Source: a virus. From it: a stretch of DNA of 24,095 nucleotides. This document shows positions 1 to 20,700 of this stretch, one piece after another. The stretch lies in the IMG/VR virus record IMGVR_UViG_3300021197_000087, positions 1 through 24,095 of that record. One strand, 5' to 3'. The translations under genes were made by a program, and so were the position numbers. The first letter of the stretch is position 1, and every line of letters begins with the position of its first letter. The notes beneath the pieces are model-generated. The model saw only the letters and a list, made by a program, of their open reading frames with translations, ran no database searches and was not told the origin of the DNA.

Positions 1-160
1 TTGCTGTGTGTTTGGCACGTAGTTTACATTCAATAAATAGGCTTTCATGTATAACATCTGCACGGGTTATTTTACCGTTGCCACCTGATAGTGGTGTACG
101 AACCCCCCCAAAAAATTTGGCCACGTTCCGTTCTCGTTGTTTCCATGCTTTATCGCCCAT
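1..160 (-). CDS. PD-(D/E)XK endonuclease (Holliday-junction-resolvase-like), 3' end missing at left edge
   Basis: Translating the minus strand from the ATG at 160-158 gives 53 residues with no stop, running off the left edge. The protein opens MGDKAWKQRERNVAKFFGG, then has an LSGGNGK stretch, a single Asp in ADVIH (residue 35) and ECK (residues 44-46). Asp, about nine residues, then E-x-K is the PD-(D/E)XK nuclease signature. The combination of a basic N-terminus, a G/S-rich loop and D...ExK matches small phage nucleases often labelled Holliday junction resolvase-like. The fold assignment is by motif. Substrate (branched DNA, or DNA during packaging or recombination) is inferred. It is read in the same direction as the small terminase, 366 bp downstream of it, so it may belong to the packaging or late side. 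A G7 and a T6 run lie in codons 16-20, so the reading frame depends on exact homopolymer length. Confidence 0.7.
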   Translation of the reverse strand, partial: MGDKAWKQRERNVAKFFGGVRTPLSGGNGKITRADVIHESLFIECKLRAKHTA

Positions 161-166
161 ATTAGC

Positions 167-195
167 ATCATACACATAACATTAACTTAACGCAA
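167..195 (-). promoter_or_regulatory. Possible sigma70 promoter for the nuclease gene
   Basis: On the minus strand, TTGCGT (195-190), a 17-bp spacer and TATGAT (172-167) precede the ATG at 160. The -10 matches 5/6 and the -35 only 3/6. The predicted start point falls on or beside the ATG, so a transcript from here would be almost leaderless. No Shine-Dalgarno sequence is visible upstream of the ATG. Confidence 0.3.
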
Positions 196-212
196 CTCCC
201 ATGTAATAGCTG

Positions 213-226
213 TTAACTTAGGTTAA
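213..226. promoter_or_regulatory. Operator-like palindrome TTAAC-TTAG-GTTAA
   Basis: Perfect 5-bp half sites (TTAAC/GTTAA) are separated by 4 bp. The same architecture recurs at 1025-1038 and, with one mismatch, at 6286, 6321, 6844 and 6875, always between genes. Here it lies about 50 bp upstream of the nuclease start, just upstream of the weak promoter described at 167-195. Binding by the Cro/YdaS-like protein encoded at 6561-6800 is inferred. Confidence 0.5.
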
Positions 227-526
227 TATCTAAATATGCCCTACACTGTGCGGATGAAAGCATTGTATATAACAAGCGGAGGCACTTTGGGGGGTGGGGG
301 GTGCGTTTGGGCAGGCGCGCTGTGGTAAATGTGTTTCCCCCTGTGTGTATATGTGACATGCGAAGGCTTTTGCTAGGCGTACCTTTACAAGACCGCAGGG
401 ATGTGAGGCCGTAGCCGTGAAATGCGCGTGTGTGTGTGCGATGAACCTTTTTTCTGGGAGGTATGGCAAGGCTAGCCGATGTGTCTTCCCCTATATAGGT
501 ATAGGAGTAATGAGCAGTATACTGTG

Positions 527-940
527 CTAATGCTCTGTTATCTTTGTACTAGACCCGCCGATAGATTGCAGCAGATGTTCTAGTTCTGTTTGTAGTTCTT
601 CGTCTGTACGTTGCTTGGTCACGTCTTCTACCTTGTGGACTGTCTGGTAGCCTGTACGGTCAAGGATGCTATTAATTGCGCCTAACTTGACTGATGCCGC
701 TACCTTGTCGTCTGTGATCAGGCTTTGTAGTTTCTCAACGGCCATAGGTACAGCGCCGCCTAATGCAGCCCGTGTAGCTAAATCAATCTCATTAACTAGC
801 TTACGTTTTAACTCGTAGCCCTGTTGTTCGGCTGTGGCTTTTGAGTAGCCCGCCTTGATTGCAGCATGTGTTGCATTGCCTAACTGACTAAAGTAGTCAA
901 CGAATGCTTTTTGCTTATCTGTCAACGTTTTTGCGCTCAT
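527..940 (-). CDS. terS: Phage terminase small subunit (Terminase_2 family)
   Basis: The 137-aa protein has the typical N-terminal DNA-binding module: LTDKQKAFVDYF, then GNATHAAIKAGYSKATAEQQG (about residues 6-41), the helix-turn-helix found in Terminase_2 small subunits. A helical middle (KLQSLITDDKVAASVKLGAIN) and a charged C-terminal tail follow. Small terminases form rings that recognise the packaging site on phage DNA and hand it to the large terminase, which is not in this window and probably lies beyond the left edge. ATG at 940 is chosen because the family motif starts directly after it. No convincing Shine-Dalgarno is visible, and a TATAAT box lies only 7 bp upstream. It is flanked by a divergent operon (1055 onwards) and by the GC-rich spacer. 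Confidence 0.9.
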   Translation of the reverse strand: MSAKTLTDKQKAFVDYFSQLGNATHAAIKAGYSKATAEQQGYELKRKLVNEIDLATRAALGGAVPMAVEKLQSLITDDKVAASVKLGAINSILDRTGYQTVHKVEDVTKQRTDEELQTELEHLLQSIGGSSTKITEH

Positions 941-947
941 GTTACTT

Positions 948-975
948 ATTATAACCTAAAGTAGTTTAAGTGCAA
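948..975 (-). promoter_or_regulatory. Possible promoter of the small terminase gene
   Basis: Minus strand: TTGCAC (975-970), 16-bp spacer, perfect TATAAT (953-948). The -35 is weak (3/6). The predicted start point (about 941) coincides with the ATG at 940, implying a leaderless or near-leaderless message, which agrees with the lack of a ribosome-binding site. Confidence 0.35.
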
Positions 976-996
976 TATATAAAGGTAAATTAATTC

Positions 997-1025
997 TTGC
1001 GTATATTCTTAAATGATGTTAACAT
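997..1025 (+). promoter_or_regulatory. Possible promoter of the small-gene operon
   Basis: TTGCGT (997-1002), 17-bp spacer, TAACAT (1020-1025, 4/6 match), with the operator palindrome immediately downstream over the expected transcription start. Weak boxes on their own. The operator and the divergent gene arrangement make a promoter here likely even if these exact boxes are wrong. Confidence 0.35.
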
Positions 1026-1038
1026 TAACCTATGTTAA
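1025..1038. promoter_or_regulatory. Operator-like palindrome TTAAC-CTAT-GTTAA
   Basis: Perfect TTAAC-N4-GTTAA palindrome in the divergent gap between the small terminase and the plus-strand small-gene operon. It shares the CTAT centre with the site at 6321-6334. It is positioned to block initiation of the plus-strand operon. Probable target of the Cro/YdaS-like regulator at 6561-6800 (inference). Confidence 0.55.
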
Positions 1039-1054
1039 TAAAAGGAGTAATATT

Positions 1055-1267
1055 ATGTGTGATAATTTAGTAACGCAATATGTTGAACGTGGCTTTGATT
1101 ACAAGCCTGTTGAAATTAAATGCGGTAACACTGGAATTTACGGTCACCGTGTGCTGTGTGATAAATGTAAAAACGATAAGGACTTGCAGGAGCGTTTGCG
1201 GGTTCAAGATGAAAACACAGATGCGGACAATGCGTGGTTGCGTTCCGCAGGTTGGGGGGAAATGTAA
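1055..1267 (+). CDS. Small conserved phage protein, candidate zinc-binding (CxxC)
   Basis: 70 aa beginning MCDNLVTQYVERGF. The ATG at 1055 is chosen because AGGAG (1043-1047) lies 7 nt upstream; the frame is open further upstream, but earlier ATGs have no such site and overlap the operator. Cys23 in IKCGNTGIYGHR and the pair Cys35-x2-Cys38 (LCDKCK) suggest a small metal-binding fold, possibly with His31 as fourth ligand. The C-terminus (AWLRSAGWGEM) resembles short hypothetical proteins I recall from marine phages. First gene of a seven-gene operon; its stop overlaps the next ATG (TAATG). Role unknown. Confidence 0.7.
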   Translation: MCDNLVTQYVERGFDYKPVEIKCGNTGIYGHRVLCDKCKNDKDLQERLRVQDENTDADNAWLRSAGWGEM

Positions 1268-1419
1268 TGAATTGTTTAGATTGTGGAAACACTGAAGGCA
1301 CACTGTTGAAAGAGTTTGACAGTGATAAGAATTACAGTTGGTACGAATTAAGTGAAATGACAGAAGTTTGTGCCAGTTGTGGTAGTGAAAATATAACAAC
1401 AAAGGAGCAACAACAATGA
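1267..1419 (+). CDS. Small four-cysteine zinc-ribbon-like protein
   Basis: 50 aa starting at the ATG overlapping the previous stop by 1 nt (TAATG). Two CxxC knuckles are seen: CLDC (residues 3-6) and CASC (residues 35-38), about 28 residues apart, the layout of a minimal zinc ribbon. The C-terminus is polar (KEQQQ). Proteins of this size usually bind nucleic acid or another protein, but the target is unknown. Start by translational coupling: the frame is open upstream to a possible earlier start inside the previous gene, which would add residues before the first CxxC and is less likely. Confidence 0.65.
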   Translation: MNCLDCGNTEGTLLKEFDSDKNYSWYELSEMTEVCASCGSENITTKEQQQ

Positions 1420-1613
1420 AAACATTTTTAAATGTATTTGGTACTATTGCGCTAGCTGTCGGTCTGATGGCTGTCGCAGGCAGTGCCAATGATTGTGATG
1501 GCAAGTGTATGGAGTATGCTAACGATTTGCCCACAATGTTAATGGTGGTCGGTTACGGCCTAATATCAATGCTTGGCGGTGGTGCATGTTTGTACACCGC
1601 TAACAAACTATAG
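1416..1613 (+). CDS. Small membrane protein with two hydrophobic segments
   Basis: 65 aa; ATG overlaps the previous stop (ATGA), with AGGAG about 9 nt upstream. Residues 4-24 (FLNVFGTIALAVGLMAVAGS) form a hydrophobic helix or signal-like segment, followed by a polar loop with two Cys (DCDGKC) and a second helix at about residues 40-60. Predicted inner-membrane hairpin or exported protein. No family recognised. Its leader GGAGCAACAAC is repeated exactly before the next gene. As part of a probable early operon it could modify the host envelope, but no function is shown. Confidence 0.65.
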   Translation: MKTFLNVFGTIALAVGLMAVAGSANDCDGKCMEYANDLPTMLMVVGYGLISMLGGGACLYTANKL

Positions 1614-1623
1614 GAGCAACAAC

Positions 1624-2214
1624 ATGAGTAAAACAAAAAATCAATATTGGGATGACATTGAAAACGATAGTCATAACGATGACAGCGCGCAGGCGGCAGT
1701 GGCAGAAGGCAAAGCGCAAGCAGCTACAATTGCAGGGCAGATAGTTGACAACTTGTCTGGCAGTGAATTGCAGTGGCTTGCAGAGGAGTTAATAGAGTGT
1801 GATCAAGATAAAGCAGAGTCACTAGCTTCAAGCCTTACGTTTGCAATACAGGACAAACATTATAGCGATTTATTAAACATCGTTAAAAGTAGCAACACAG
1901 GTGGCACACACTTACACGGGCATATCAATGACCGTTCGTATGCTGACTTGGTTAAAGCGTTTGGTGAACCGCATTTTCGTTATCAACCGCGTGCAGGTGC
2001 AGAGGATAAGATAGACGTTGAATGGGCGTTTGAATTTCCCGATGGTCGTGTGTTTACTGTGTACAACTGGAAAAATGGCAAAGCATATTGCGGCGCACAT
2101 GGTGAGGATGTTGAAGACATGACAGAATGGAATGTGGGCGCACATAAACAAAGCACATATGATGCTGTCATTGAAATGCTTAGTATAAAACTAGGAGCAG
2201 TGAAAAATGGATAA
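1624..2214 (+). CDS. Conserved phage protein of unknown function
   Basis: 196 aa from the ATG at 1624, preceded by TAGGAGCAACAAC. The frame is open upstream to 1573, but only this start has a ribosome-binding site. The N-terminal half is acidic and Ala/Gln-rich (SAQAAVAEGKAQAATIAGQ) and probably helical. The C-terminal half (about residues 93-190) has a compact block: HGHINDRSYADLVKAFGEPH, DVEWAFEFPDGRVFTVYNWK, then YCGAHGEDVEDMTEWNVG. I recognise this block from many tailed-phage genomes, where it is uncharacterised. No catalytic motif stands out. The 8-nt overlap with the next gene supports one operon. Confidence 0.7.
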   Translation: MSKTKNQYWDDIENDSHNDDSAQAAVAEGKAQAATIAGQIVDNLSGSELQWLAEELIECDQDKAESLASSLTFAIQDKHYSDLLNIVKSSNTGGTHLHGHINDRSYADLVKAFGEPHFRYQPRAGAEDKIDVEWAFEFPDGRVFTVYNWKNGKAYCGAHGEDVEDMTEWNVGAHKQSTYDAVIEMLSIKLGAVKNG

Positions 2215-2413
2215 CCCGTTTTTTAGTGTTGGTAAGGTGTGGGTTGAAAGTGTTGTGAAAGATCATTTAAAAGGCCTTTCGCCCACACAACAGCAACAGG
2301 CAATTGATTACCTATTAAACAATAAGCAGGAATTACACATTGGTTTTGATGATGGATTACGCGGCATATTGGATGATTGGGTAAAAAAACAAAATGCAAA
2401 ATTAACGCCATGA
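2207..2413 (+). CDS. Hypothetical protein, 68 aa
   Basis: Starts at ATG 2207 inside the end of the previous gene (8-nt overlap), with AGGAG about 10 nt upstream. A mostly helical soluble protein is predicted: a Val/Lys-rich N-terminus, a Gln run (TQQQQAIDYLLNN), and an acidic-aromatic C-terminal half (FDDGLRGILDDWVKK). No cysteine or known motif. Evidence for coding is the tight overlap on both sides and the ribosome-binding site; function unknown. Confidence 0.55.
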   Translation: MDNPFFSVGKVWVESVVKDHLKGLSPTQQQQAIDYLLNNKQELHIGFDDGLRGILDDWVKKQNAKLTP

Positions 2414-2562
2414 TGTTGCGTTTTATATTAACTGGCTGCTTGTGGACGCTATCCATTTATCTGATTGCAGATAATGACAAGGTAGATGCTGCAATAGTCG
2501 CAATGTGGGGTGTGATCAATCTTTGGCACACCATTGAAGAAAATAGGAGAACAGAAAGATGA
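2410..2562 (+). CDS. Small membrane protein, 50 aa
   Basis: ATG at 2410 overlaps the previous stop (ATGA, with a second ATG directly after it). MMLRFILTGCLWTLSIYLIA (residues 1-20) is one hydrophobic helix and VDAAIVAMWGVINLWHTI (about 26-43) a second, followed by a charged tail (EENRRTER). Likely an inner-membrane hairpin with a cytoplasmic C-terminus. The stop overlaps the next gene by ATGA. No family recognised. Confidence 0.55.
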   Translation: MMLRFILTGCLWTLSIYLIADNDKVDAAIVAMWGVINLWHTIEENRRTER

Positions 2563-2921
2563 CAACTAAAAAACAACGTGATTACCATGAAAAGACAGAA
2601 AGCTATGAATACTTGCAAAAGCACATCAATGAGGGTGATACAATTTACTACATTGTTAAGCGTGTTTCTAACTCTGGCATGTATAGACATATTGCTTTCT
2701 ATAAGTTTAACGTCAAAGATACATTTAAAGAAGGTGAAGACAGGGTGCAGAGCATTTGGTTAACGCGTGCTATGTGCAACGTGCTTGGTTACACTTTTAA
2801 AGAACAGACAGAATGTATGGGTGTAAATGGTTGCGGCATGGACATGGGTTTTAGTGTTATACACAATCTAGGCCATGAATTGTTTGGTGATGGTTACAAA
2901 CTTACATCAAAGGGATTATAA
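2559..2921 (+). CDS. Conserved phage protein (Cys-Gly-rich C-terminal motif)
   Basis: 120 aa, ATGA overlap with the previous gene. The pattern GDTIYYIVKRVSNSGMYRHIAFY (about residues 26-48), then SIWLTRAMCNVLGY and GVNGCGMDMGFSVIHNLGHELFGDGY near the end, matches a small protein family common in phage replication or early regions. Its function has not, to my knowledge, been established. Last gene of the plus-strand operon. Its stop codon abuts the stop of the opposing nuclease gene with no spacer, so the two messages must overlap tail to tail. Confidence 0.75.
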   Translation: MTTKKQRDYHEKTESYEYLQKHINEGDTIYYIVKRVSNSGMYRHIAFYKFNVKDTFKEGEDRVQSIWLTRAMCNVLGYTFKEQTECMGVNGCGMDMGFSVIHNLGHELFGDGYKLTSKGL

Positions 2922-3281
2922 TTATTCATAGAATAAATTGTTCCTTGTATACGGGTTGGATGCTTCTATCTGACCCGTTTTTTTATCTTCATAGTCAAGC
3001 CAATCAATCACCATTTTAAGCAGTTCTGTTTGCGTTCCATAGTTACCTGTAAACTCTGAAGGGCTTGTGTGATAGCCATATGTCCCACGGTGATGCAAAT
3101 AACAAAGCGGTATAACTTCAAAATGACTAGACCGCCTGCCCATGCCTGTATGGTTTTTTATATGGTGTATCTCAGCAGGTGAATCGTAATGGCCTAATTG
3201 TGCGCAGGCAACGCAGCCCAAATTGGCAACACGTGACATGTGTTTTTTTTCTTCAACGGTTGCAGGTTTTTTTTTAGCCAT
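2922..3281 (-). CDS. Ref-family recombination-enhancement HNH nuclease
   Basis: 119 aa beginning MAKKKPATVEEKKH. The ATG at 3281 is chosen because it overlaps the stop of the upstream gene; the frame continues to a TTG at 3296 but that start is less likely. Motifs: GCVACAQLG (Cys23, Cys26), IHHIKNHTGMGRRSSH (His39/His40 onward), and VIPLCYLHHRG (Cys60, His63, His64). This is the HNH-type zinc and metal-binding arrangement of the P1 Ref / RecA-dependent nuclease family. Known Ref cuts DNA in a RecA-dependent way and stimulates recombination. Last gene of the replication operon, fitting a role in recombination-dependent replication or repair. Confidence 0.8.
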   Translation of the reverse strand: MAKKKPATVEEKKHMSRVANLGCVACAQLGHYDSPAEIHHIKNHTGMGRRSSHFEVIPLCYLHHRGTYGYHTSPSEFTGNYGTQTELLKMVIDWLDYEDKKTGQIEASNPYTRNNLFYE

Positions 3282-3612
3282 ATTTCTTACGCTCAATGGT
3301 TTGGTTAATCATGTTGGTTTTCCATTTTTCAAAGTTAATATCAACTATCTTTTTTTCCCATGCCCATTTTAATTCTTCTTCAACAGCTATGCCCAATGCC
3401 TCAATGTGTTGCGCATATTCTGGATCAGCACGGGCTTCCCGTTCCTGTCCTGCTGCTGTCTTCTCACCTTTAAGCATATACTTTTTCATCAAGTTTGACA
3501 GCATGATTTGCCTGTTGTGTTCCAACACAGTTAGATCACGTTTAGCTGCTGCATGTTTTATACCTACCTCACGCAGCTTGTGTATTTGTTCTTCTTTAGC
3601 GTCCTCTGACAT
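3274..3612 (-). CDS. Conserved helical phage protein between helicase and Ref nuclease
   Basis: 112 aa from the ATG at 3612, chosen because GGGGGT lies just upstream; the open frame extends further upstream inside the helicase gene. Very rich in charged residues with long predicted helices (EEQIHKLREVGIKHAAAKRD, then GEKTAAGQEREARADPEY). The C-terminus is aromatic and basic (WEKKIVDINFEKWKTNMINQ). The central block resembles uncharacterised proteins next to Ref-like nucleases in other phages. Overlaps both neighbours (17 nt with the helicase, 8 nt with the nuclease), so it is translated with them. Role unknown; a nuclease partner or DNA-binding factor is a guess. Confidence 0.65.
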   Translation of the reverse strand: MSEDAKEEQIHKLREVGIKHAAAKRDLTVLEHNRQIMLSNLMKKYMLKGEKTAAGQEREARADPEYAQHIEALGIAVEEELKWAWEKKIVDINFEKWKTNMINQTIERKKYG

Positions 3613-5089
3613 AAGCACCCCCATTTGATTTGGCTTTTTTAATTTGCAAGTGGCGCAGGTAGCCTTTGACCTCATCGCCCACAGGTTTTGGCATTACACG
3701 TTTACTGTGTGGAAAATGCCCAAACTTTTCTTTAAATGTCCAACTTGCCCAACCTTCTTTGTAGCCTTTTTGTTTGCTGTGAAATAAAAGCTGTGCGTAA
3801 AACTCTTGTTTGTCTTGTGCATTGATGTCTGCTTTTGGTAACTCAACCAAACGTCCCTGCTTAATTAATACTTTTTTGTCTGCTTCTGTGGGCGCATGAC
3901 CACACACAGGGCAAGTTCTTAATATTCTGGTAGGATGATAAACGGCATTGCATTTAGTGCATGTAAACGGCTGTTTATCTATTTCCTTACGTTCTTTCTT
4001 TTGTTGTCTGGTAATCTTATCAGCAGTTAGTTCCCAATCAGGCACATCTTCAGGAAACCCGTGTTCATATACACAGCCTGCATGATCAATAATTAATGTA
4101 TCTTTTTTGTTTTCAAACGGACGCAAAGACCTTCCAACCATCTGCAAATACATGCCGTAAGATTTAGTAGGCCTTGCAAGTACAACACAAGACACCTTGG
4201 GTTCATCCCATCCCTCTGTTAATACTTGGCAATTAGATAACACTTTTATTTTGCCATGGTGTAAATCATGCAGCACTTGTTCACGTTCAAGTTCATCCAT
4301 GTCACCGTCAACATGGCCTGCAGGTATGCCGTTATCATTAAATATTTTAGATATGTATTTACTGTGTGCAATTGATGTAGCAAACACAACAGTTGGCCTG
4401 CCTTCAGCATGTCGTAACCAATGCGTAACTAAATCACCAACTAACTTAGGTGTGTTCATACGTTTGTTAAGACCACGTTTTTCATAATCACCTGCCATTA
4501 TTTTAAGACCATCTAAGTCTGGCATTGTTGGTGCAACTACACGATTAGGTACTAAATAACCTTCTTCAGTTAACTTTCGTATACTACCGCATTCAATTAG
4601 ATCATCATATATTCCGCCTAAACCTTTGCCATCATTACGTACAGGCGTTGCAGTTAGGCCAATCACATATGCTTCAGGGTATTCTTCAATCAAATCTTTA
4701 AATGATTTACTTACACTACGGTGTGCTTCATCTAAAATAATAACGTCTGCATTTGGTTTGTTAAAAAATTTGTTTTCTTTTCTAATTGTAAACGTTTGTA
4801 TGCTTGCAACTTGTGTTCTTGCACCAATGTTAGCCGATCTACCTGCCATAATTACGCCATGGTTCACATCAAACTGGCGTAGTTTATCGCTACATTGATC
4901 AATTAATTCACGTCTATGTGCCACAAACAAACAATTATTGCTTTTATCTACAGCAGCTTTGATCATTGCGCCTGCTATTACTGTCTTACCGCTACCCGTT
5001 GGAGCAACAAGCAATAGTTTTTTATTGCCTGCACGCATTGAGTCACGCAGTTTTTGTAATGCTAGTTCTTGGTAATCTCTAAGGTGCAT
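3596..5089 (-). CDS. Superfamily 2 DEAH-box DNA helicase with zinc ribbon
   Basis: 497 aa with a full SF2 motif set: Q-like N-terminus (LRDYQELAL), Walker A APTGSGKT (29-36), DEAH (120-123), TATP (146-149), a helicase C-terminal domain with VFATSI (235-240) and VLTEGWDEP (289-297), and motif VI QMVGRSLRP (316-324). After the helicase core comes a four-Cys zinc ribbon, CTKC (377-380) and CPVC (393-396), then a basic tail. It is an ATP-driven duplex-unwinding enzyme of the type III restriction/XPB-like group used by phages for replication. Start ATG 5089 has TGGAG 6 nt upstream and overlaps the primase gene by 11 nt, suggesting the pair acts together at the fork or origin. Confidence 0.9.
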   Translation of the reverse strand: MHLRDYQELALQKLRDSMRAGNKKLLLVAPTGSGKTVIAGAMIKAAVDKSNNCLFVAHRRELIDQCSDKLRQFDVNHGVIMAGRSANIGARTQVASIQTFTIRKENKFFNKPNADVIILDEAHRSVSKSFKDLIEEYPEAYVIGLTATPVRNDGKGLGGIYDDLIECGSIRKLTEEGYLVPNRVVAPTMPDLDGLKIMAGDYEKRGLNKRMNTPKLVGDLVTHWLRHAEGRPTVVFATSIAHSKYISKIFNDNGIPAGHVDGDMDELEREQVLHDLHHGKIKVLSNCQVLTEGWDEPKVSCVVLARPTKSYGMYLQMVGRSLRPFENKKDTLIIDHAGCVYEHGFPEDVPDWELTADKITRQQKKERKEIDKQPFTCTKCNAVYHPTRILRTCPVCGHAPTEADKKVLIKQGRLVELPKADINAQDKQEFYAQLLFHSKQKGYKEGWASWTFKEKFGHFPHSKRVMPKPVGDEVKGYLRHLQIKKAKSNGGAYVRGR

Positions 5090-5903
5090 ATCTACTCCAA
5101 ATGTCTTTTACTTGAAACAAAACTTCATTGTGATTTTCTGGTGGATTGCAAGCGTTAGCAAATTTTAGTGCTTCTTCTCTTGCATAGTCTTCTGACTCGC
5201 CACGTTTTCTGATAGCAATTAACATCTTAACCAATGCTGCATGTCTATCACCTCTGCCAACACCATATCTAAGTGTGCCTGTGTATTTACCTTGATACAT
5301 AGATGGTGTGTAATCTGATTTAAACATTTCTTGTTCTGGCCTTTTAAGATCAAGACCATGCTTTATCTCAGCCATGGTGTACGGTGTGTCTATGCCTTGC
5401 GCACCAATAACTTTAATTGGATATGGTTTACTTTTGTTATGATAAAACCCTGCAACTCGCATAACTCTTGGCAAATCTTTTACAACTGGGTCTGAATTAA
5501 ACTTTGCAGCTAACGCTTGTTGATACAAAGTAAATGATTCTAATGGCATGTCATTGACTAACCAGTAACAATGATATTTTTCTGGTGATGTGCTTAATAT
5601 AAAATTAGGTTTAAGATCAAACTTATCAGGCAACGGTGTGCCATCTAAATCAATAAACACAGCCCTAACTTTTGTAATATTTTTAGTTGTTCTGCCTGTC
5701 AAATCTGTCTGATTTACAGTAAAAAATACACCTGCACCCTGTTTATTAAGTGACCATAATTCATCAATGTGTTCTTCCAACGTGCCGTGTAACTGTCTTA
5801 TGATCTTACGATTTTTACCTTTATCACAAAACGTTTGAAAACTGTGATGTGTACCAAAGGCTTGCATAAATATTCCATGGTGACTATTTGGATTGTACTT
5901 CAT
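5079..5903 (-). CDS. RepB-like archaeo-eukaryotic-type primase
   Basis: 274 aa. ATG at 5903 is preceded by GGGGGAGCAAGG; an in-frame upstream extension exists but lies inside the previous gene. Key features: AVFIDLDGTPLP with the DxD metal pair (Asp85, Asp87), STSPEKYHCYWLV with His111, and DLPRVMRVAGFYHNK (about 143-157). This succession (DxD, then sxH, then an R/H-rich strand) is typical of the RepB_primase branch of AEP primases, which make primers for plasmid or phage replication. The C-terminal 60 residues are helical and charged (GDRHAALVKMLIAIRKRGES) and may contact the helicase. Located between the DUF1376 protein and the helicase, forming a compact initiation module. Confidence 0.8.
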   Translation of the reverse strand: MKYNPNSHHGIFMQAFGTHHSFQTFCDKGKNRKIIRQLHGTLEEHIDELWSLNKQGAGVFFTVNQTDLTGRTTKNITKVRAVFIDLDGTPLPDKFDLKPNFILSTSPEKYHCYWLVNDMPLESFTLYQQALAAKFNSDPVVKDLPRVMRVAGFYHNKSKPYPIKVIGAQGIDTPYTMAEIKHGLDLKRPEQEMFKSDYTPSMYQGKYTGTLRYGVGRGDRHAALVKMLIAIRKRGESEDYAREEALKFANACNPPENHNEVLFQVKDIWSRYAP

Positions 5904-6276
5904 CCTTGCTCCCCCATCGTTTGTCTGCACCTTTTTTACCCGCAACTTGGCGTTTTTTACGGTTCAACGCTTGTTCTTTTCTTTCTTCTTCAGCTTGCAA
6001 ACATATTAAAAAACTACCTTGCTTATCATTCTGCTCAAAAAACATATGTTTCATGGCAGGCCACATCTTTTTAATTTTATCTATAGTGCAATTGCACATC
6101 TTAGACATAATTTCATAATCATTTGGTATTCTAAAACCACGCCAACAATGACAGTACAAAAGAATGTACGCACCTTGTTCTTCAAGGGACATTTTCATAC
6201 GGCTTGGTTCGCTTATCCAATCATTAGCGTAAAACTGAAACGCAGGTGATTGTTCGTCTGTAGATTTTTTTCTCAT
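5884..6276 (-). CDS. DUF1376 (YdaU-type) phage replication-region protein
   Basis: 130 aa. Residues 12-45 (AFQFYANDWISEPSRMKMSL, then EEQGAYILLYCHCW) are the hallmark of DUF1376, a winged-helix-like domain found at the start of phage replication operons (YdaU, and the N-termini of some DnaC-loader or O-like initiators). The second half is basic with a Lys/Arg-rich tail (RKKRQVAGKKGADKRW). A DNA-binding initiator or origin-recognition role is inferred from family context. First gene of the operon; ATG 6276 follows AGGTAACA. A strong promoter with operator sites lies 30-60 bp upstream. Confidence 0.8.
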   Translation of the reverse strand: MRKKSTDEQSPAFQFYANDWISEPSRMKMSLEEQGAYILLYCHCWRGFRIPNDYEIMSKMCNCTIDKIKKMWPAMKHMFFEQNDKQGSFLICLQAEEERKEQALNRKKRQVAGKKGADKRWGSKDEVQSK

Positions 6277-6285
6277 TGTTACCTG

Positions 6286-6299
6286 TTAATTTCTGTTAA
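6286..6299. promoter_or_regulatory. Imperfect operator TTAAT-TTCT-GTTAA
   Basis: One mismatch from the TTAAC-N4-GTTAA consensus. It lies between the -10 box of the replication-operon promoter and the DUF1376 start, about where transcription would begin to elongate. Together with the site at 6321-6334 it forms a pair 35 bp apart. Confidence 0.35.
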
Positions 6300-6305
6300 G
6301 TTAAT

Positions 6306-6334
6306 AATATACTATCCATGTTAACCTATGTCAA
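6306..6334 (-). promoter_or_regulatory. Sigma70 promoter of the replication operon
   Basis: Minus strand: perfect TTGACA (6334-6329), 17-bp spacer, TATATT (6311-6306; 5/6). Transcription would begin about 25 nt upstream of the DUF1376 ATG at 6276. The -35 box and spacer are overlapped by operator 6321-6334, so repression by occlusion is expected. Confidence 0.7.
6321..6334. promoter_or_regulatory. Operator TTAAC-CTAT-GTCAA over the replication promoter
   Basis: One mismatch from the palindrome. One half site is the GTCAA shared with the -35 hexamer of the minus-strand promoter. Same CTAT centre as 1025-1038. Probable binding site of the regulator encoded at 6561-6800. Confidence 0.55.
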
Positions 6335-6375
6335 TACCATTTGCAAAATATGTGTAAGGGCTGCTACCTATCTTG

Positions 6376-6417
6376 GTTGAAGTTGTAGGTGCAGTTGAAG
6401 GTGAAGGTGAAGATGAA
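6376..6417. repeat. Seven tandem degenerate hexamers (consensus GNTGAA)
   Basis: Units at six-base period: GTTGAA, GTTGTA, GGTGCA, GTTGAA, GGTGAA, GGTGAA, GATGAA. The region has no ATG-started open frame. It lies between the replication promoter and the 11-bp repeat array, with strong purine bias on the plus strand. Either a simple-sequence expansion or part of an origin/control region. Confidence 0.6.
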
Positions 6418-6433
6418 GGGGATTAATTTGCCA

Positions 6434-6480
6434 TTAGCAAAACGGTAGCAAAGTAATAGCATTGCCATAGCATTGCCATA
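6434..6480. repeat. Iteron-like array: four 11-bp direct repeats
   Basis: TAGCA occurs at 6435, 6446, 6457 and 6468, exactly 11 bp apart. Units are TTAGCAAAACG, GTAGCAAAGTA and two identical copies of ATAGCATTGCC, followed by a partial ATA. A more degenerate unit may precede at 6423. One-helical-turn spacing means the repeats face the same side of the DNA, as in plasmid iterons and multi-site operators. The array sits between the replication operon and the regulator gene; candidate origin of replication (inference). Confidence 0.55.
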
Positions 6481-6490
6481 TTTATTGGGT

Positions 6491-6534
6491 AATAAAAAGG
6501 GAGGCAGGCAACAATGAGAAAAGCCGTACCTCCC
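6491..6534 (-). terminator. Rho-independent terminator of the regulator gene
   Basis: Read on the minus strand: GGGAGG (6534-6529), interrupted inner GGC/GCC pairing, CCTCCC (6504-6499), then TTTTTATT (6498-6491). The stem followed directly by a T tract lies 27 bp past the regulator stop at 6561. It would insulate the regulator message from the replication operon. Confidence 0.7.
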
Positions 6535-6560
6535 GTGCCACCAGTATTTTTAGCCTAAGA

Positions 6561-6800
6561 TTAGTGACCTACTCCCTGCGGCAACGGAGCAATTTCGTCT
6601 GCGTGTTTTAGATCGGGACGTAAATAATCCAAATCAAAATCACCTATATCTGCTATTTGATAAGCACGCAAAGGGGGTATAACTTGCCATTTAGATACAG
6701 CAGGGTGGCTAATATTCAACATACGTGATAGATTTCTACCACCATATTTAGTTACCACCTCTTTCTTGCGTTCTTTAGCAAGTTCATATAATGAATTCAT
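6561..6800 (-). CDS. Cro/YdaS-like helix-turn-helix transcriptional regulator
   Basis: 79 aa. GGRNLSRMLNISHPAVSKW (about 21-39) is a helix-turn-helix with a typical AVSKW recognition helix. IPPLRAYQIADIGDFDLDYL follows, the pattern of small Cro/YdaS-family proteins (xIPPxRAxxIe). Single-domain, no cleavable repressor or dimerisation domain, so closer to Cro than to CI. ATG 6800 has AAGGA about 10 nt upstream. It is transcribed from a promoter inside the 6801-6931 gap that itself carries an operator, so autoregulation is likely. It is the only visible candidate regulator for the TTAAC-N4-GTTAA sites. Confidence 0.8.
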   Translation of the reverse strand: MNSLYELAKERKKEVVTKYGGRNLSRMLNISHPAVSKWQVIPPLRAYQIADIGDFDLDYLRPDLKHADEIAPLPQGVGH

Positions 6801-6828
6801 AATAACAATCCTTTATTGATCTAAGTAC

Positions 6829-6857
6829 ATAATACTTATAATATTAACAAATGTCAA
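6829..6857 (-). promoter_or_regulatory. Sigma70 promoter of the regulator gene
   Basis: Minus strand: perfect TTGACA (6857-6852), 17-bp spacer, TATTAT (6834-6829; 5/6). The start point would be about 20-25 nt before the ATG at 6800. The -35 is overlapped by the operator at 6844-6857, the arrangement expected for autorepression. Confidence 0.7.
6844..6857. promoter_or_regulatory. Operator TTAAC-AAAT-GTCAA at the regulator promoter
   Basis: One mismatch from the consensus palindrome; it covers the -35 hexamer of the minus-strand promoter, just as 6321-6334 does at the replication promoter. Its centre is 31 bp from the centre of the companion site at 6875-6888, close to three helical turns. Confidence 0.55.
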
Positions 6858-6865
6858 CATGATGC

Positions 6866-6894
6866 TTGACTTTAGTAACCTAAGTTAATATAAT
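6866..6894 (+). promoter_or_regulatory. Strong sigma70 promoter of the recombination operon
   Basis: TTGACT (6866-6871; 5/6), exact 17-bp spacer, perfect TATAAT (6889-6894). The start point near 6901 leaves a leader of about 30 nt with AAGGAG before the ATG at 6932. An operator fills the spacer. One of the best promoter matches in the window. Confidence 0.8.
6875..6888. promoter_or_regulatory. Operator GTAAC-CTAA-GTTAA within the promoter spacer
   Basis: One mismatch from TTAAC-N4-GTTAA. It lies wholly between the -35 and -10 boxes of the plus-strand promoter, so protein binding would exclude RNA polymerase. Its reverse complement (TTAACTTAGGTTAC) matches the site at 213-226 in 13 of 14 bases. 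Confidence 0.55.
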
Positions 6895-6931
6895 AGACAC
6901 TCCAATAGTAAATATTAAAAAAGGAGTAGAC

Positions 6932-7552
6932 ATGAGTATTATTGCGAAGACAGTGGACAATGAGTCCAAATATCCTGAAGTAAGTACAGGAGTACACAAG
7001 GCTAGATGTGTAAAGGTAATTGATCTAGGCACACAAGAAAACAACTATGATGGGCAGATAACTTGGAAACGTCAATGTATGATTATCTGGGAAGTACCAT
7101 CTGAGTCTAATAACAATGGTGAACCTTTAACTATCAGCAAGTTTTATACACTATCGCTGCATGAAAAAGCTACATTGGGACAAGACTTGTCAGCATGGCG
7201 TGGCCGTCCATTTACTGAAATGGAAAAAAAGGGTTTTGATATATCAAAGCTATGTGGTGTTCCATGTTTCATTAATGTAATGGAAGGTAAGAATGGTAGA
7301 CCGCGTGTTACATCTATCATGCCATTGCCTAAAGATGATCAAGCATCATTAGCAGAGCAGTTTCACGAAGCTGTAGTGTTTTCAGTTGATGAATACCAAA
7401 AGGGTAACCGTGAGGAGTTTAACAAACTTGCGGATGGTATACGTAACATCATTCTTAGATCAAAAGAATTAGCAGACACACAAGACCTTGGTGATGAGCA
7501 TAATGGTGAGCCAATGCCCGATTTGTCTGATGATGAAACTGTACCATTTTAG
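6932..7552 (+). CDS. Single-stranded DNA-binding protein-like (OB-fold) phage protein
   Basis: 206 aa, ATG 6932 with AAGGAG 8 nt upstream. The central block (HKARCVKVIDLGTQ, KRQCMIIWEV, LTISKFYTLSLHEKATLGQD, then AWRGRPFTEME) matches a phage replication-protein family commonly annotated as SSB-like. The last residues, DLSDDETVPF, form an acidic tail ending in aromatic Pro-Phe, the classic partner-docking tail of bacterial SSBs (DDIPF type). Likely coats ssDNA and recruits the exonuclease or helicase. First gene of the plus-strand operon, 9 bp before the exonuclease gene, a typical recombination pair. Confidence 0.7.
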   Translation: MSIIAKTVDNESKYPEVSTGVHKARCVKVIDLGTQENNYDGQITWKRQCMIIWEVPSESNNNGEPLTISKFYTLSLHEKATLGQDLSAWRGRPFTEMEKKGFDISKLCGVPCFINVMEGKNGRPRVTSIMPLPKDDQASLAEQFHEAVVFSVDEYQKGNREEFNKLADGIRNIILRSKELADTQDLGDEHNGEPMPDLSDDETVPF

Positions 7553-7561
7553 GGGGTTGCT

Positions 7562-8458
7562 ATGAAAATAACTAACAATGCTAATTTACCTGCGGCAATA
7601 CAACGCGCAGTAACTAATGACCCGTATGATTCTGGTGGCAGTGACATTTCTGCAACACGGCTGTTGCAACCACCACGCATTACAGCGTTAACTAAAAGGC
7701 ACTATGAGAGCCTAGAAGAAGACGTATCAGACCGTATCTGGTCTTTGTTGGGTCAATCTACCCATCATGTCATAGAACGTGCTGCAGAAGGCACTGAAGA
7801 CCTTACAGAGCGTAGAATATTCGTGAAGAACAGTAAGACACACGGATGGCAACTATCTGGTACGTTTGATTATCTATCACGTGATGGTGAATTGCTTGAT
7901 TTTAAGACTACATCTGCATGGTCAGCCATGGATGCAGCATTAAAGGGTAAAGCAGAATGGGAAGCACAGCTAAATATACTTGATTGGCTTGTACGTAACT
8001 CATTGGTTAAAGAAAATGATGGTATCAAAGTTAAGTCTTTAGCCATTGTAGCTATCTTACGTGATTGGTCTAAGATGAAAGCATTAACATCTGTTAACTA
8101 TCCTAAACATCAAGCAGTTGTTATACCAATTGAACGTTGGTCACCTGAAGTGCAAGACGTTTATATTAGTGAACGTATACAATTGCATCAAGCAGCACAG
8201 AAAATGGCAGAACCACCTATATGTACACCTGAAGAACGTTGGCATAAAGAAGATCAATATGCTGTGATGAAGGATGGACGTAAATCTGCTGTACGATTAC
8301 TACCTACAAGACAAGAAGCCTTGGATTATATGTCTAAGAACAGTATGAAAGAAGGCAAAGGTTGTAACATTGTGTTACGTAAAGGTGAAGATACACGTTG
8401 CGCCCACTACTGCAGTGTTAATAAATTCTGTAGTCATTGGAATAATGTGGCCTTTTAA
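7562..8458 (+). CDS. RecB/Cas4-like PD-(D/E)XK exonuclease with C-terminal Cys cluster
   Basis: 298 aa. Nuclease motifs: LLGQSTHHVIE with His68 (motif I of RecB-like nucleases), SGTFDYL with Asp103, LLDFKTTSAW with Asp113 and Lys115 (the D-x-K core), and EWEAQLNIL with Gln136. The C-terminus has Cys280-x3-Cys284-x5-Cys290 (RCAHYCSVNKFC) plus Cys221 and Cys268 upstream. Cas4 and AddB carry a similar set of one upstream and three C-terminal Cys holding an iron-sulfur cluster, so a cluster is possible here. Likely digests dsDNA ends to make ssDNA for the upstream SSB-like protein or a host recombinase. GGGGGT precedes ATG 7562; the stop overlaps the next ATG. Confidence 0.85.
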   Translation: MKITNNANLPAAIQRAVTNDPYDSGGSDISATRLLQPPRITALTKRHYESLEEDVSDRIWSLLGQSTHHVIERAAEGTEDLTERRIFVKNSKTHGWQLSGTFDYLSRDGELLDFKTTSAWSAMDAALKGKAEWEAQLNILDWLVRNSLVKENDGIKVKSLAIVAILRDWSKMKALTSVNYPKHQAVVIPIERWSPEVQDVYISERIQLHQAAQKMAEPPICTPEERWHKEDQYAVMKDGRKSAVRLLPTRQEALDYMSKNSMKEGKGCNIVLRKGEDTRCAHYCSVNKFCSHWNNVAF

Positions 8459-8661
8459 TGACATTTAAATTAACCAAAGACCCTATTGTAGCTGCCATAA
8501 TTAAACGTGCCAATGATCGTTCTAACGCAGGCATTGATAGTTATGGTGGCACAATGGCGGATGCTAAAAAATCATTACATAGTTGGATAGATGATGCACA
8601 GGAAGAAGCATGGGATTTAATTGTGTATCTTGAAAAGATAAAAAGTATCTTACCTAAGTAA
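8458..8661 (+). CDS. Small conserved helical phage protein (MazG-like motif)
   Basis: 67 aa, coupled to the exonuclease gene by TAATG overlap. Layout: DPIVAAIIKRANDRSNAGIDSYGGTM, then SLHSWIDDAQEEAWDLIVYLEKI. Similar short proteins occur in many phages. The second part (EE..D in a helix followed by YLEKI) is reminiscent of half of an all-alpha NTP pyrophosphatase (MazG-like) core, but only one metal-binding helix is present, so enzymatic activity is doubtful. Function unknown. Confidence 0.65.
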   Translation: MTFKLTKDPIVAAIIKRANDRSNAGIDSYGGTMADAKKSLHSWIDDAQEEAWDLIVYLEKIKSILPK

Positions 8662-8870
8662 TGGATTTAATAATATTGTCAGATAACTTGTATCAGTTAG
8701 TACCTCTTACAAAAGAAATGATAGAGTCTATGCAGCTTGTAAAAGAATTTGATTTTGCAGACCTATGCGATGTGCTACGTTTAAAATTAACAACGTATGC
8801 AGACTACCCTATCAATGCTCATATAATGAACGATGGTAGCGGTCACTTTATTGGATGTATGTGGCGTTAA
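8661..8870 (+). CDS. Hypothetical protein, 69 aa
   Basis: ATG 8661 overlaps the previous stop (TAATG). The sequence starts MDLIILSDNLYQLVPLTKEM and ends NAHIMNDGSGHFIGCMWR, suggesting a small alpha/beta protein with a Gly-rich hairpin near the C-terminus. No family recognised. Last gene of the plus-strand operon; its stop overlaps by 4 nt the stop of an opposing 29-codon gene (8867-8956), and no terminator is visible between the convergent operons. Confidence 0.55.
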   Translation: MDLIILSDNLYQLVPLTKEMIESMQLVKEFDFADLCDVLRLKLTTYADYPINAHIMNDGSGHFIGCMWR

Positions 8871-8956
8871 AATCTATATGTGCAACCAACTACTGCTTGT
8901 AACAGCAACCAAAAAAGCACAAACAAAATAATCCACGCAGCAATTCTTTTGCTCAT
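8867..8956 (-). CDS. 29-aa lipoprotein-like or membrane peptide after the endolysin
   Basis: Minus-strand frame from ATG 8956, three bases past the endolysin stop: MSKRIAAW, then a hydrophobic helix (residues 8-24), then CTYRF. It has a positive N-terminus, a hydrophobic core, and a lipobox-like AVVGC (Cys25), the layout of a signal peptidase II substrate. Its position straight after the endolysin is where outer-membrane spanins (Rz1-type) are often encoded. However, the mature peptide would be only five residues, too short for a classical spanin, and no Shine-Dalgarno is seen, so coupling to endolysin translation would be needed. It may alternatively be a small membrane anchor or a chance frame. 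Confidence 0.45.
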   Translation of the reverse strand: MSKRIAAWIILFVLFWLLLQAVVGCTYRF

Positions 8957-8959
8957 ATG

Positions 8960-9412
8960 TTAATTCAATTCAAAATGTGGAGCATCAATAAATGGTCTAC
9001 GCTTTTCAGCCCTTCGCTCATCAATGTAAGAATTCATTGCATCCTCCATAGATAAATTCCAATCAGCAATATCTGGCACTGTCCATGCAGCACCCCATCT
9101 AATTCTAACTCCTTGGTTTTGGGCAGCTTCACGCATTGCTTCTGCCACATCATCATACATGTTAAGTTCCCATGTACCTCTTGACCCAATGTATGCCATT
9201 AAATCTACAGCATCACCTGTCAAATGTTTTGATTTCATAGTCTGACTAGCACCACTAGCTACCAGTTTTTTTTGTTCATCCTCTGTTCTAAGGCCACAAA
9301 TTACACCAAAGTCTACTTTAGTTATTTCAATAGCTTCCATAACTACATCAAATAATTCTGGCTTTACGGGTTCTAGTTTAGTTAATGATCGTTCTGATAA
9401 TTTAAATGTCAT
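8960..9412 (-). CDS. Endolysin, M15-family zinc D-Ala-D-Ala/L-Ala-D-Glu peptidase
   Basis: 150 aa. Zinc ligands of the M15 family are visible: SKHLTGDAVDL with His63 and Asp70, and APHFEL with His146. GLRTEDEQKKLVASG (40-54) is the conserved Arg-containing strand and helix. The enzyme cuts peptide cross-links or stems of peptidoglycan, releasing progeny. No signal peptide or wall-binding domain, so it needs the holin encoded just upstream. ATG 9412 overlaps the holin stop (ATGA). The length is normal for single-domain phage M15 endolysins. Confidence 0.9.
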   Translation of the reverse strand: MTFKLSERSLTKLEPVKPELFDVVMEAIEITKVDFGVICGLRTEDEQKKLVASGASQTMKSKHLTGDAVDLMAYIGSRGTWELNMYDDVAEAMREAAQNQGVRIRWGAAWTVPDIADWNLSMEDAMNSYIDERRAEKRRPFIDAPHFELN

Positions 9413-17776: not shown

Positions 17777-20700
17777 TTATTCTGCCTGAAACAACAGTGG
17801 AAAATCTGCAGGATTCTCTTGTGCAAAATTCTGTATGTTTTTAATTATTAGTGCTTTCTTTTTTATATCGTCCTCACTTATTAACATTTGCAATAAATCT
17901 GTACCACCTGTTGCTTTACCTAATGCGTCACGCAACATAGTGTTGTTTTTAATATAATCGCTACGTTTTGCAATAACTTTAATTTCATCTGCAGTTAATG
18001 GAGTATCATCTTGGCTAATGATCTTTTTCATTGCATCTTTAAATATTAGGCTTTCTCTACTGTTTTGTCTATCTAACAATTTGAAATCTTTAAATATATC
18101 CATTTTAACAGGATGCTCACCTACTTTTATAAAAACATTAGCTAGTTGTCCTGCTAGTGGTATTTTTAATATTTCTTCTAATTCATCTACAATTTCTGTT
18201 GGGTCATCTGATCTAAGCCTATAAATACTAGACCCTCCATAGGTGTTCCACATATACTTCAATGCTTCTGTTTGTGTCTTAATATTCTGTGCTTTCCATA
18301 CATCATCATCTAATGCGTACTGGCCTCTAAATTTATCTATTGGATTACCACCGCTTAAAAACTCAATACTGTCTGCAATTAATGGAATAACAGGATTTAG
18401 ACTTGGCATTACATCACTTTCTAATGCTTGCATAAAGTTTTGCATTCCAATCTCACCATCACCTAATACCATTTCTGCAGTCAAACCAATAAATCCATTC
18501 ATAACTCTTGCAGATTCATCTTGTGGTATACGGAAATAAATAGGCTTACCTGATTTAGTATAACCTAATGGAATAATAATATAATTTTGTTCATCGTATT
18601 TATTTACACCTGCATAGAACGTAGCCAATGCTGTACCAAATAAACCGTATTTCATAGCTTTTTGTACTAATTTAGGTGCTACATTGTAGGCCATAAACTT
18701 AGTAGTTACTGATAATGGGTCTTCTCTTAGTCTAGCATAGTCACCTCTAATACCTTCTTTCATAGCATTAGAAAAAATCATTATATTATTAGTTACTTGA
18801 TGGTACTTAGCCGTACGTAAAAAACTAGGTGAACCAACGTCTGCTTGTATTTTAAGCATCATTTCTTGCGTAGACATACTAATTTCACCACGCTCAACCA
18901 TATCTTTTAAATACATTGTGCCTGCAACTTTATGCGATCTTTCTTGAAACTTAGCAAAATCACTAATTGCTTGAAAAAACCTACCCATCGTTTTGTCATA
19001 CAATGATGAATATTCTTTAGGTGACATACGTTGTAACATTTTTTCTACAACAAATTGATCAGGCGTTAATGTGCCTTTTTCAAACATTTTAGCTAGTGCA
19101 GCTTCACCTGCTTTACCTCTATAACCTTCCATTTGCGATATAAGGAAACCTTGGTTTTCCATCCAATTAGTTAATTCTGTTCCTTTTCTATCGCCCATAA
19201 TAGATTTCCATGTAGGCTTTAAAGATTTAAACCAGTATTTAACAATTGAGTGTTTGCCACCTCCTACTAAATCAAAATATCTAGCGTTAGGTAAATTTCT
19301 TACAGACCTTCCTGTATCTCTAAAATGGTTTTTAGCCCAGAAATACGGATTGTATTCAGTAAATATTGTTCTAAAAAAATTATTAGCAGATGCAGCATAT
19401 GTCATTACTCTTACAAATTCATGTGGATTTCTTTTAAATGCTTGCGCTGCATGTTTGTTAACATGATAATATCGGTATTTACCGTTAAGCATAAAGGCTA
19501 TAGTTTCCATACCTGCAGGTGGTGGTTCTACTTTACCTTTGTCAATGTATTTAGCTTTTTCTACAACTTTATCTTTCCATGTACCAAATTTAACATAGCC
19601 TGCTTTAACCATACGGCCTTCATCAAATGTTTCTATCCAATCCTTGTTTTTTTGCATCCAAAGAATAGAATCGTGAATCATACGATTACGTTTTAATTCA
19701 GACATAATTAACATGTCTTTTTGCAGTGTAGATAATAATGGGTCTACTATATCAGCTAATGTACCTTCAGTAGCTTTGCTAAATGATGCAGATGAAATGT
19801 TGTTACCACCTGATCTGTCTAATCTTTCAAGTGCATATTTCAACACGTTAAAATTAATGTATGTTTCGTTATTTAAAATAGCTTCTAATGTTGCTTTATC
19901 AAATGCTTTACTTTCAATAATTAACGGATGTACATATTTTTTACGTAACTCATAAAATTTAGTAGCTGCTTGATCAAGCATTGGATGCTCTTTAGCAAAC
20001 CATTGATATGCTTCTAGTGGTGTACGTTCACCTACAAACTCATTTGCAATAGCTTCACCTTCTTTGCCCATAGCTTTTATTTGCGCCCATAGACCCATAG
20101 GGTTTGCTTTACCCATACGTTGTTGTGATACAGCAAGGTTTCTTAACAAGAGCATTGTAGATAGCATGCTTGAATTGTAGCCTGCTGCTTCTATTGGTCT
20201 AATAACTTGTGCATCTACTGTTTCTGTATATCGTTGCATGCCTGCATGTCTGTACCTGTAATTTTCTTGTCTAGCATTCAGGTTCATAGTTTCTTTGTCC
20301 ATCCAACGGCTTTGGCCTTCTTTGTTCTTACCCCACATACCATTTTGACCGCCAAAACGTCTGTAAAACCATGACATTGTATCTATGACATCTATTTTAA
20401 TTGCATCAAACTGATTAGGTTTCCATGCGTTTTCCATGCCGTCATATATTTGTATTTTACTGTCTACAAATTTATTAGATATACGGTTTACCATAGATGA
20501 ATAACGTGCATCTGAACCTGCGTTAATCTCATTCTGTACTTTTTCGTACTGGGCTTTTACTTCAGGCCGTTTGTACATATGGTAGTTAAACATTTGCCAT
20601 GATTTAGGCGCATTTAACATTGTCCATTGTGGGCGTAATAAATAAGCCATCATAAAATCAGCCATTAACTCACGTGGATTATCTCTGTATGCAGTGTATT

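Follow-up and report, generated by a model that had tools for sequence, protein, structure and literature searches.

A probable Cro-only early control circuit, built from a P22 Cro-type regulator and dispersed TTAAC-N4-GTTAA operators, in marine phages related to Pelagibacter phages

The Cro protein of phage P22 (Pfam PF14549; PDB 1RZS) acts in lytic growth, by its annotation, to turn early gene expression off, and its operators, according to the P22 record, read TTAAG-N4-CTTAA at OL1 and OR3, with close variants elsewhere. Cluster A mycobacteriophages rely on one repressor with many dispersed sites and have no CI/Cro pair; their stoperators are 13–14 bp long, lack dyad symmetry and lie mostly away from promoters (PMC6550527). 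Here we analyze a 24,095-base virus record (IMG/VR IMGVR_UViG_3300021197_000087; 37% GC), referred to below as the window and numbered from its first base, in which the palindrome TTAAC-N4-GTTAA recurs in four intergenic regions (A to D) and a regulator of 79 amino acids (aa) is encoded next to region D. This protein belongs to the P22_Cro family, and we consider it likely, from sequence comparison, that it forms with these sites an autoregulated Cro-only repressor circuit that turns early promoters down, with neither a CI repressor nor an integrase.

The resemblance to P22 extends to the Pfam family and to 5-4-5 dyad operators, with a 4-bp center, placed in early promoters. Here, however, the innermost base pair of the half-site is inverted (TTAAC), both a divergent C2/CI gene and a tripartite OR are absent, and the sites are spread over four regions and ∼6.7 kb. 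Nearer in sequence are the Cro proteins of Klebsiella phage ST101-KPC2phi6.3 and Pectobacterium phage ZF40, which have HPAVCRW in the helix where the window protein has HPAVSKW, and whose GTAAC-N4-GTTAC operators agree with those of the window at four of five half-site bases; unlike the window lineage, both phages are temperate and carry a divergent CI gene. The likeness to Cluster A lies in a single repressor with scattered sites, but the window sites are palindromic and stand at promoters, rather than being asymmetric and mostly off-promoter. A search of the open-access literature found no account of this circuit or of transcription control in this marine phage lineage. Within that literature, the original prediction of a previously undescribed circuit is upheld as to the arrangement, and not as to the protein, whose type is known.

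The elements of the proposed circuit are as follows.
6844..6857, operator D1, TTAACAAATGTCAA (minus strand TTGACATTTGTTAA), over the −35 element and spacer of the regulator promoter.
6829..6857, minus strand, regulator promoter, TTGACA-17-TATTAT, 11/12 match.
6561..6800, minus strand, regulator, 79 aa, P22_Cro family (PF14549), recognition helix ISHPAVSKW.
6875..6888, operator D2, GTAACCTAAGTTAA, within the spacer of the rightward promoter.
6866..6894, plus strand, rightward promoter, TTGACT-17-TATAAT, 11/12 match, for the operon of the 206-aa protein and exonuclease.
6321..6334, operator C1, TTAACCTATGTCAA (minus strand TTGACATAGGTTAA), over the −35 element and spacer of the replication promoter.
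6306..6334, minus strand, replication operon promoter, TTGACA-17-TATATT, 11/12 match.
6286..6299, operator C2, on the downstream side of the replication promoter, TTAATTTCTGTTAA.
1025..1038, operator B (perfect copy), TTAACCTATGTTAA, adjoining the −10 element and spanning the start site of the small-gene promoter.
1009..1022, possible but weak second operator in region B, TTAAATGATGTTAA, one mismatch, its spacing not conserved in the relatives listed.
997..1025, plus strand, candidate small-gene promoter, TTGCGT-17-TAACAT, read from the sequence and relatives.
213..226, operator A, TTAACTTAGGTTAA, perfect, between the terminase small subunit gene (terS) and a nuclease-like gene, promoter context uncertain.

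All six copies named in the original prediction (213–226 and 1025–1038, perfect; 6286–6299, 6321–6334, 6844–6857 and 6875–6888, one mismatch) were recovered, and all six lie between genes. Allowing up to one mismatch, the window holds 12 matches against 2.15 ± 1.45 in shuffled sequences, whose maximum was 7 (0 of 100 shuffles reached 12). The additional matches are 1009–1022, intergenic and next to 1025, and five in coding sequence, at 1873, 8084, 11296, 16498, and 20513. The copy at 8084 is perfect, falls within the exonuclease gene and is common to close relatives only; it was treated as chance, as coding copies of this kind probably are. A simple gene caller places seven of the 12 matches (the original six plus 1009–1022) in intergenic sequence, which makes up 4.6% of positions (binomial P 3e-7). 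Across 11 genomes of the family, 51 sites were counted in 19.9 kb of intergenic sequence and 49 in 368 kb of coding sequence (odds 19); the reversed pattern, searched in the same genomes as a control, gave 0 and 20, respectively. The enrichment whose absence would have refuted the original prediction is thus present.

Positions 1–9000 of the window contain just three promoters with an 11/12 match, and each overlaps D1, D2, or C1, in agreement with the claim that three of the operators overlap good sigma70 elements. At C1 and D1 the TTAAC half-site is changed to TTGAC, which forms the first five bases of the −35 element. When all relatives are pooled, a −10 element (at least 5/6) comes after TTGAC-N4-GTTAA in 28% of cases vs. 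3.5% for other occurrences of TTGAC (P 3e-15). At the small-gene promoter the final base of the −10 element is, in many relatives, the first base of operator B; these include versions reading TTGCGT-18-TATAAT, where the shared base is the last T.

The regulator scores 40 bits against PF14549 (E 3.4e-10), above the curated cut-off of 30.2, and matches P22 Cro (1RZS) weakly in the PDB. For the YdaS family (PF15943, cut-off 30) the window protein reached 18.1 bits and that of Pelagibacter phage Baldr, introduced below, 30.1, with P22_Cro scoring higher in both. An AlphaFold2 model consists of helices only (mean predicted local distance difference test score, 82.5) and superposes on the Xfaso 1 Cro structure 3bd1 with a root-mean-square deviation of 1.7 and a probability of 0.99, the Foldseek E-value being just 0.2; the predicted fold is a short, all-helical helix-turn-helix. 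Relatives number 43 in viral contigs and 204 by alignment search, of which the best 80 were fetched. Residues 30–38, ISHPAVSKW, are invariant in 18 aligned members, and ISHPA[VI]SKW is found in 155 of 156 relatives, the remaining one differing at the first residue alone. Baldr and 11 long relatives each have exactly one P22_Cro gene over the cut-off (12/12). Family membership, the single copy per genome, and a site type and spacing that match those of other P22_Cro phages together point to the 79-aa protein as the likely binder of the palindromes, as had been proposed.

An isolate of the lineage of the window phage exists in Pelagibacter phage EXVC032P Baldr (OQ414636; 39,463 bases; 31% GC), which infects HTCC1062; its helicase and regulator are 64 and 70% identical to those of the window, and its record annotates the regulator as a hypothetical protein. 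When loci of relatives were oriented on the regulator, sites appeared in the same four regions. D is the interval between the regulator and the 206-aa protein, C precedes the primosomal/primase/helicase operon (scored from the regulator to the primosomal gene), B precedes the small-gene operon next to terS, and A lies between terS and the nuclease-like gene (scored over 600 nt after terS). After removal of near-duplicates, a site was kept at D in 31 of 33 relatives, at C in 28 of 33, at B in 21 of 24, and at A in 15 of 16, whereas the reversed pattern occurred once at D, once at A, and at neither C nor B. The persistence of sites in all four regions of diverged relatives supports the prediction that the replication, recombination, small-gene, and nuclease/packaging sides are all targets of the regulator. 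When all 5-bp half-sites with gaps of 0–12 were ranked upstream of the regulator, TTAAC-N4 came first, in 37 of 40 dereplicated regions; in shuffles of these regions it averaged 2.25 and the best of any palindrome reached 15.

Spacings between D sites in relatives cluster at 21–24 and 31–34 bp, near two and three helical turns, which suggests cooperative binding on one face of the DNA, and operator C2 is retained, with unchanged spacing, in close relatives. Baldr has operators of the same type at the matching regions. It differs from the window, with the rest of a Baldr-like subgroup, in an extra open reading frame (ORF) that precedes the regulator, and the D operators stand at the distal promoter of that ORF, ∼250–300 nt away. 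In a separate observation, many distant relatives (L026, L081, and L098 among them) have a hybrid operator at C, TTAAC-N4-CTTAA, one half of which is as in P22 and which is conserved across many phages.

The genes under these operators, and those flanking them, are listed here.
6932..7552, plus strand, gene that opens the rightward operon, for a 206-aa protein of unknown function (PHROG 862).
7562..8458, plus strand, exonuclease gene (PHROG 2139, E 2.7e-47).
2922..6276, minus strand, leftward operon for a primosomal-like DUF1376 protein, a RepB-type primase, a helicase, an unknown protein, and an HNH/Ref-like nuclease.
1055..2921, plus strand, small-gene operon, called as ORFs; none of the five proteins tested had a confident Pfam match.
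527..940, minus strand, terS (Pfam Terminase_2, E 1.3e-13).
1..160, minus strand, beginning of a small gene for a nuclease-like protein (MGDKAWKQRER...), truncated by the end of the window and 95 aa long in a relative; no Pfam match was found.

From the motif, its enrichment, promoter overlap, and conservation, together with the protein family and the lack of CI and integrase domains in relatives, we infer binding by the regulator, its dimeric state, repression, and timing along the following lines. A dimer would bind each palindrome, with one recognition helix in each TTAAC half-site. Repression would be its main act, as the C and D operators cover the −35 element and/or spacer of strong promoters of the host-sigma70 type and operator B adjoins a −10 element and overlies the start site. 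Directly upon infection, the C, D, and B promoters would fire, the regulator would build up from its own early promoter, and, once accumulated, it would shut down the replication, 206-aa protein/exonuclease, and small-gene operons as well as itself, in the manner for which P22 Cro is annotated. The circuit would then amount to the Cro half of a lambdoid switch on its own, one protein probably setting the early gene program without its usual partner repressor.

Site A fits this scheme least closely and leads to an unlikely alternative, in which the regulator represses early promoters and also activates the packaging/late cluster. In the window and several close relatives, a weak promoter (TTGCGT-17-TATGAT or a similar sequence) would place the transcription start ∼56–60 bp downstream of the center of operator A, an arrangement like that of activated promoters. 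The site also heads a leftward nuclease/packaging cluster, which in Baldr extends through terL to structural genes. A single 79-aa Cro-type master regulator of apparently lytic marine phages might then make the early-to-late switch without CI, repressing the early promoters and its own and turning late genes on through A, which we regard as equally doubtful. Distant relatives do not keep the geometry, their start codon being only ∼40–50 nt from the operator, and the ATATTAAC context at A might instead represent a −10 element that adjoins the operator in the way seen at B. No promoter geometry common to the relatives was found at this site.

Slightly less probable is a second alternative, that the regulator acts on its own as an immunity or maintenance repressor of CI-like function, holding the phage in a silent carrier or plasmid-like state rather than turning early genes off in lytic growth. 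The operators do cover every early promoter, that of the regulator included, Cluster A mycobacteriophages use a single repressor with no Cro analog (PMC6550527), and the window encodes a RepB-type primase. The protein itself is, however, of the short Cro type. Since about a third of the genome is missing from the window, the absence of integration and CI genes was judged from relatives: neither integrase/resolvase domains (PF00589, PF00239) nor the CI-type domains HTH_3 and Peptidase_S24, the latter being the self-cleavage domain, were matched in 11 long relatives or Baldr, in searches that included positive controls. These searches bear out the prediction of a circuit without a visible CI-type repressor. 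The gene divergent from the regulator encodes the 206-aa PHROG 862 protein, where a lambdoid cI-cro immunity region has CI beside cro, and the integration machinery of a temperate phage was not found either; because both a divergent CI and an integrase were searched for without success, we do not regard the locus as a lambdoid immunity region. A scan of 84,980 prokaryote species (one genome each), able to detect close relatives only, likewise came back empty for the regulator, a result that argues against frequent lysogeny. A Cro-type repressor acting in lytic growth remains the preferred reading.

A third alternative, to which we give very little credence, is recognition of the palindromes by some host factor or by a replication protein, with the regulator nearby by coincidence. 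Some dispersed phage palindromes are replication or host-factor sites, and binding by this regulator is itself something we infer. The sites, though, follow promoters instead of gathering at one origin region, their geometry and half-site match other P22_Cro gene neighborhoods, and helix and site are conserved together. As the recognition helix is near-invariant in the 156 relatives, covariation could not be followed within the lineage, and the comparison was made across P22_Cro phages. P22 and window sites have identical 5-4-5 geometry with the innermost base pair inverted. A blind search for the best half-site upstream of other P22_Cro genes returned N4 dyads in nearly all cases, and GTAAC-N4-GTTAC lies beside the genes with the nearest helices, namely ISHPAVCRW in the Klebsiella phage and IKHPAVCRW in ZF40. 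A basic residue before the helix Trp goes with an inner C in five of five helix types (that of the window included) and Gln with an inner G in six of eight (Fisher P 0.02), in a small sample of related helix types and with a residue grouping chosen after the first cases. The pairing of helix and half-site is thus supporting evidence rather than proof of the proposed binding. A strict one-residue recognition code was rejected, Gln going with inner G in just those six of eight types. As a side observation, at positions 283–389 of a Shewanella plasmid locus (L376; CP080634) a P22_Cro gene with helix VTKSAISQW is flanked by TTAACCTCGGTTAA and TTAACGTAAGTCAA, the same half-site as in the window being reached by a different helix.

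That the sites arose by chance in A+T-rich intergenic sequence, as a 37% GC genome, a motif with 80% A+T at its specified positions, and probable chance copies such as that at 8084 might suggest, has next to no probability given 12 matches where 2.15 were expected, the almost empty reversed control, the unbiased palindrome scan, and placement conserved in diverged relatives.

Several observations nevertheless weigh against a Cro-only repressor circuit. One relative (L080) has no site at D, several have just one-mismatch sites at C, and promoter geometry at site A is inconsistent. Proteins of Vibrio chagasii and Shewanella with Gln before the Trp have an inner C, and the operators of temperate P22_Cro phages, since they serve CI as well, do not test Cro specificity cleanly.

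Other features of the window concern the phage more broadly. Between terS and site A (∼225–270, minus strand) lies a conserved, relatively GC-rich non-coding element in an A+T-rich genome, CAATGGATTAATCCGTGTAGCGGTGGG in many relatives, which adjoins the terminase genes and is a candidate packaging (cos/pac) site or terminator. A 12-pair hairpin followed by a T-run (2951–2978), between the convergent small-gene and HNH-nuclease operons, is a likely terminator. A single ORF of 2062 aa (17777–23965, minus strand) takes up a quarter of the window within the leftward structural cluster, and neither Rfam families nor tRNAs were detected in the window. In Baldr, a terS homolog (59% identical) is present at ∼39008–39382, where the record annotates no gene. 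The genome type was judged from long relatives to be ∼35–39 kb. The tail fiber region of the window shares 74–77% DNA identity with other Pelagibacter phages, and the family consists of ocean phages related to phages of Pelagibacter; the window phage itself, at 37% GC against 31% for Baldr, need not share the host of that isolate.

For this family, the analysis defines a regulon concrete enough to test, and Baldr, grown on Pelagibacter HTCC1062, is an isolate in which that can be done. The Cro half of the lambda/P22 switch apparently stands alone here, which bears on whether such switches gained or lost CI, and the recognition-helix/half-site pairs across P22_Cro phages supply data for a proposed protein-DNA recognition code.

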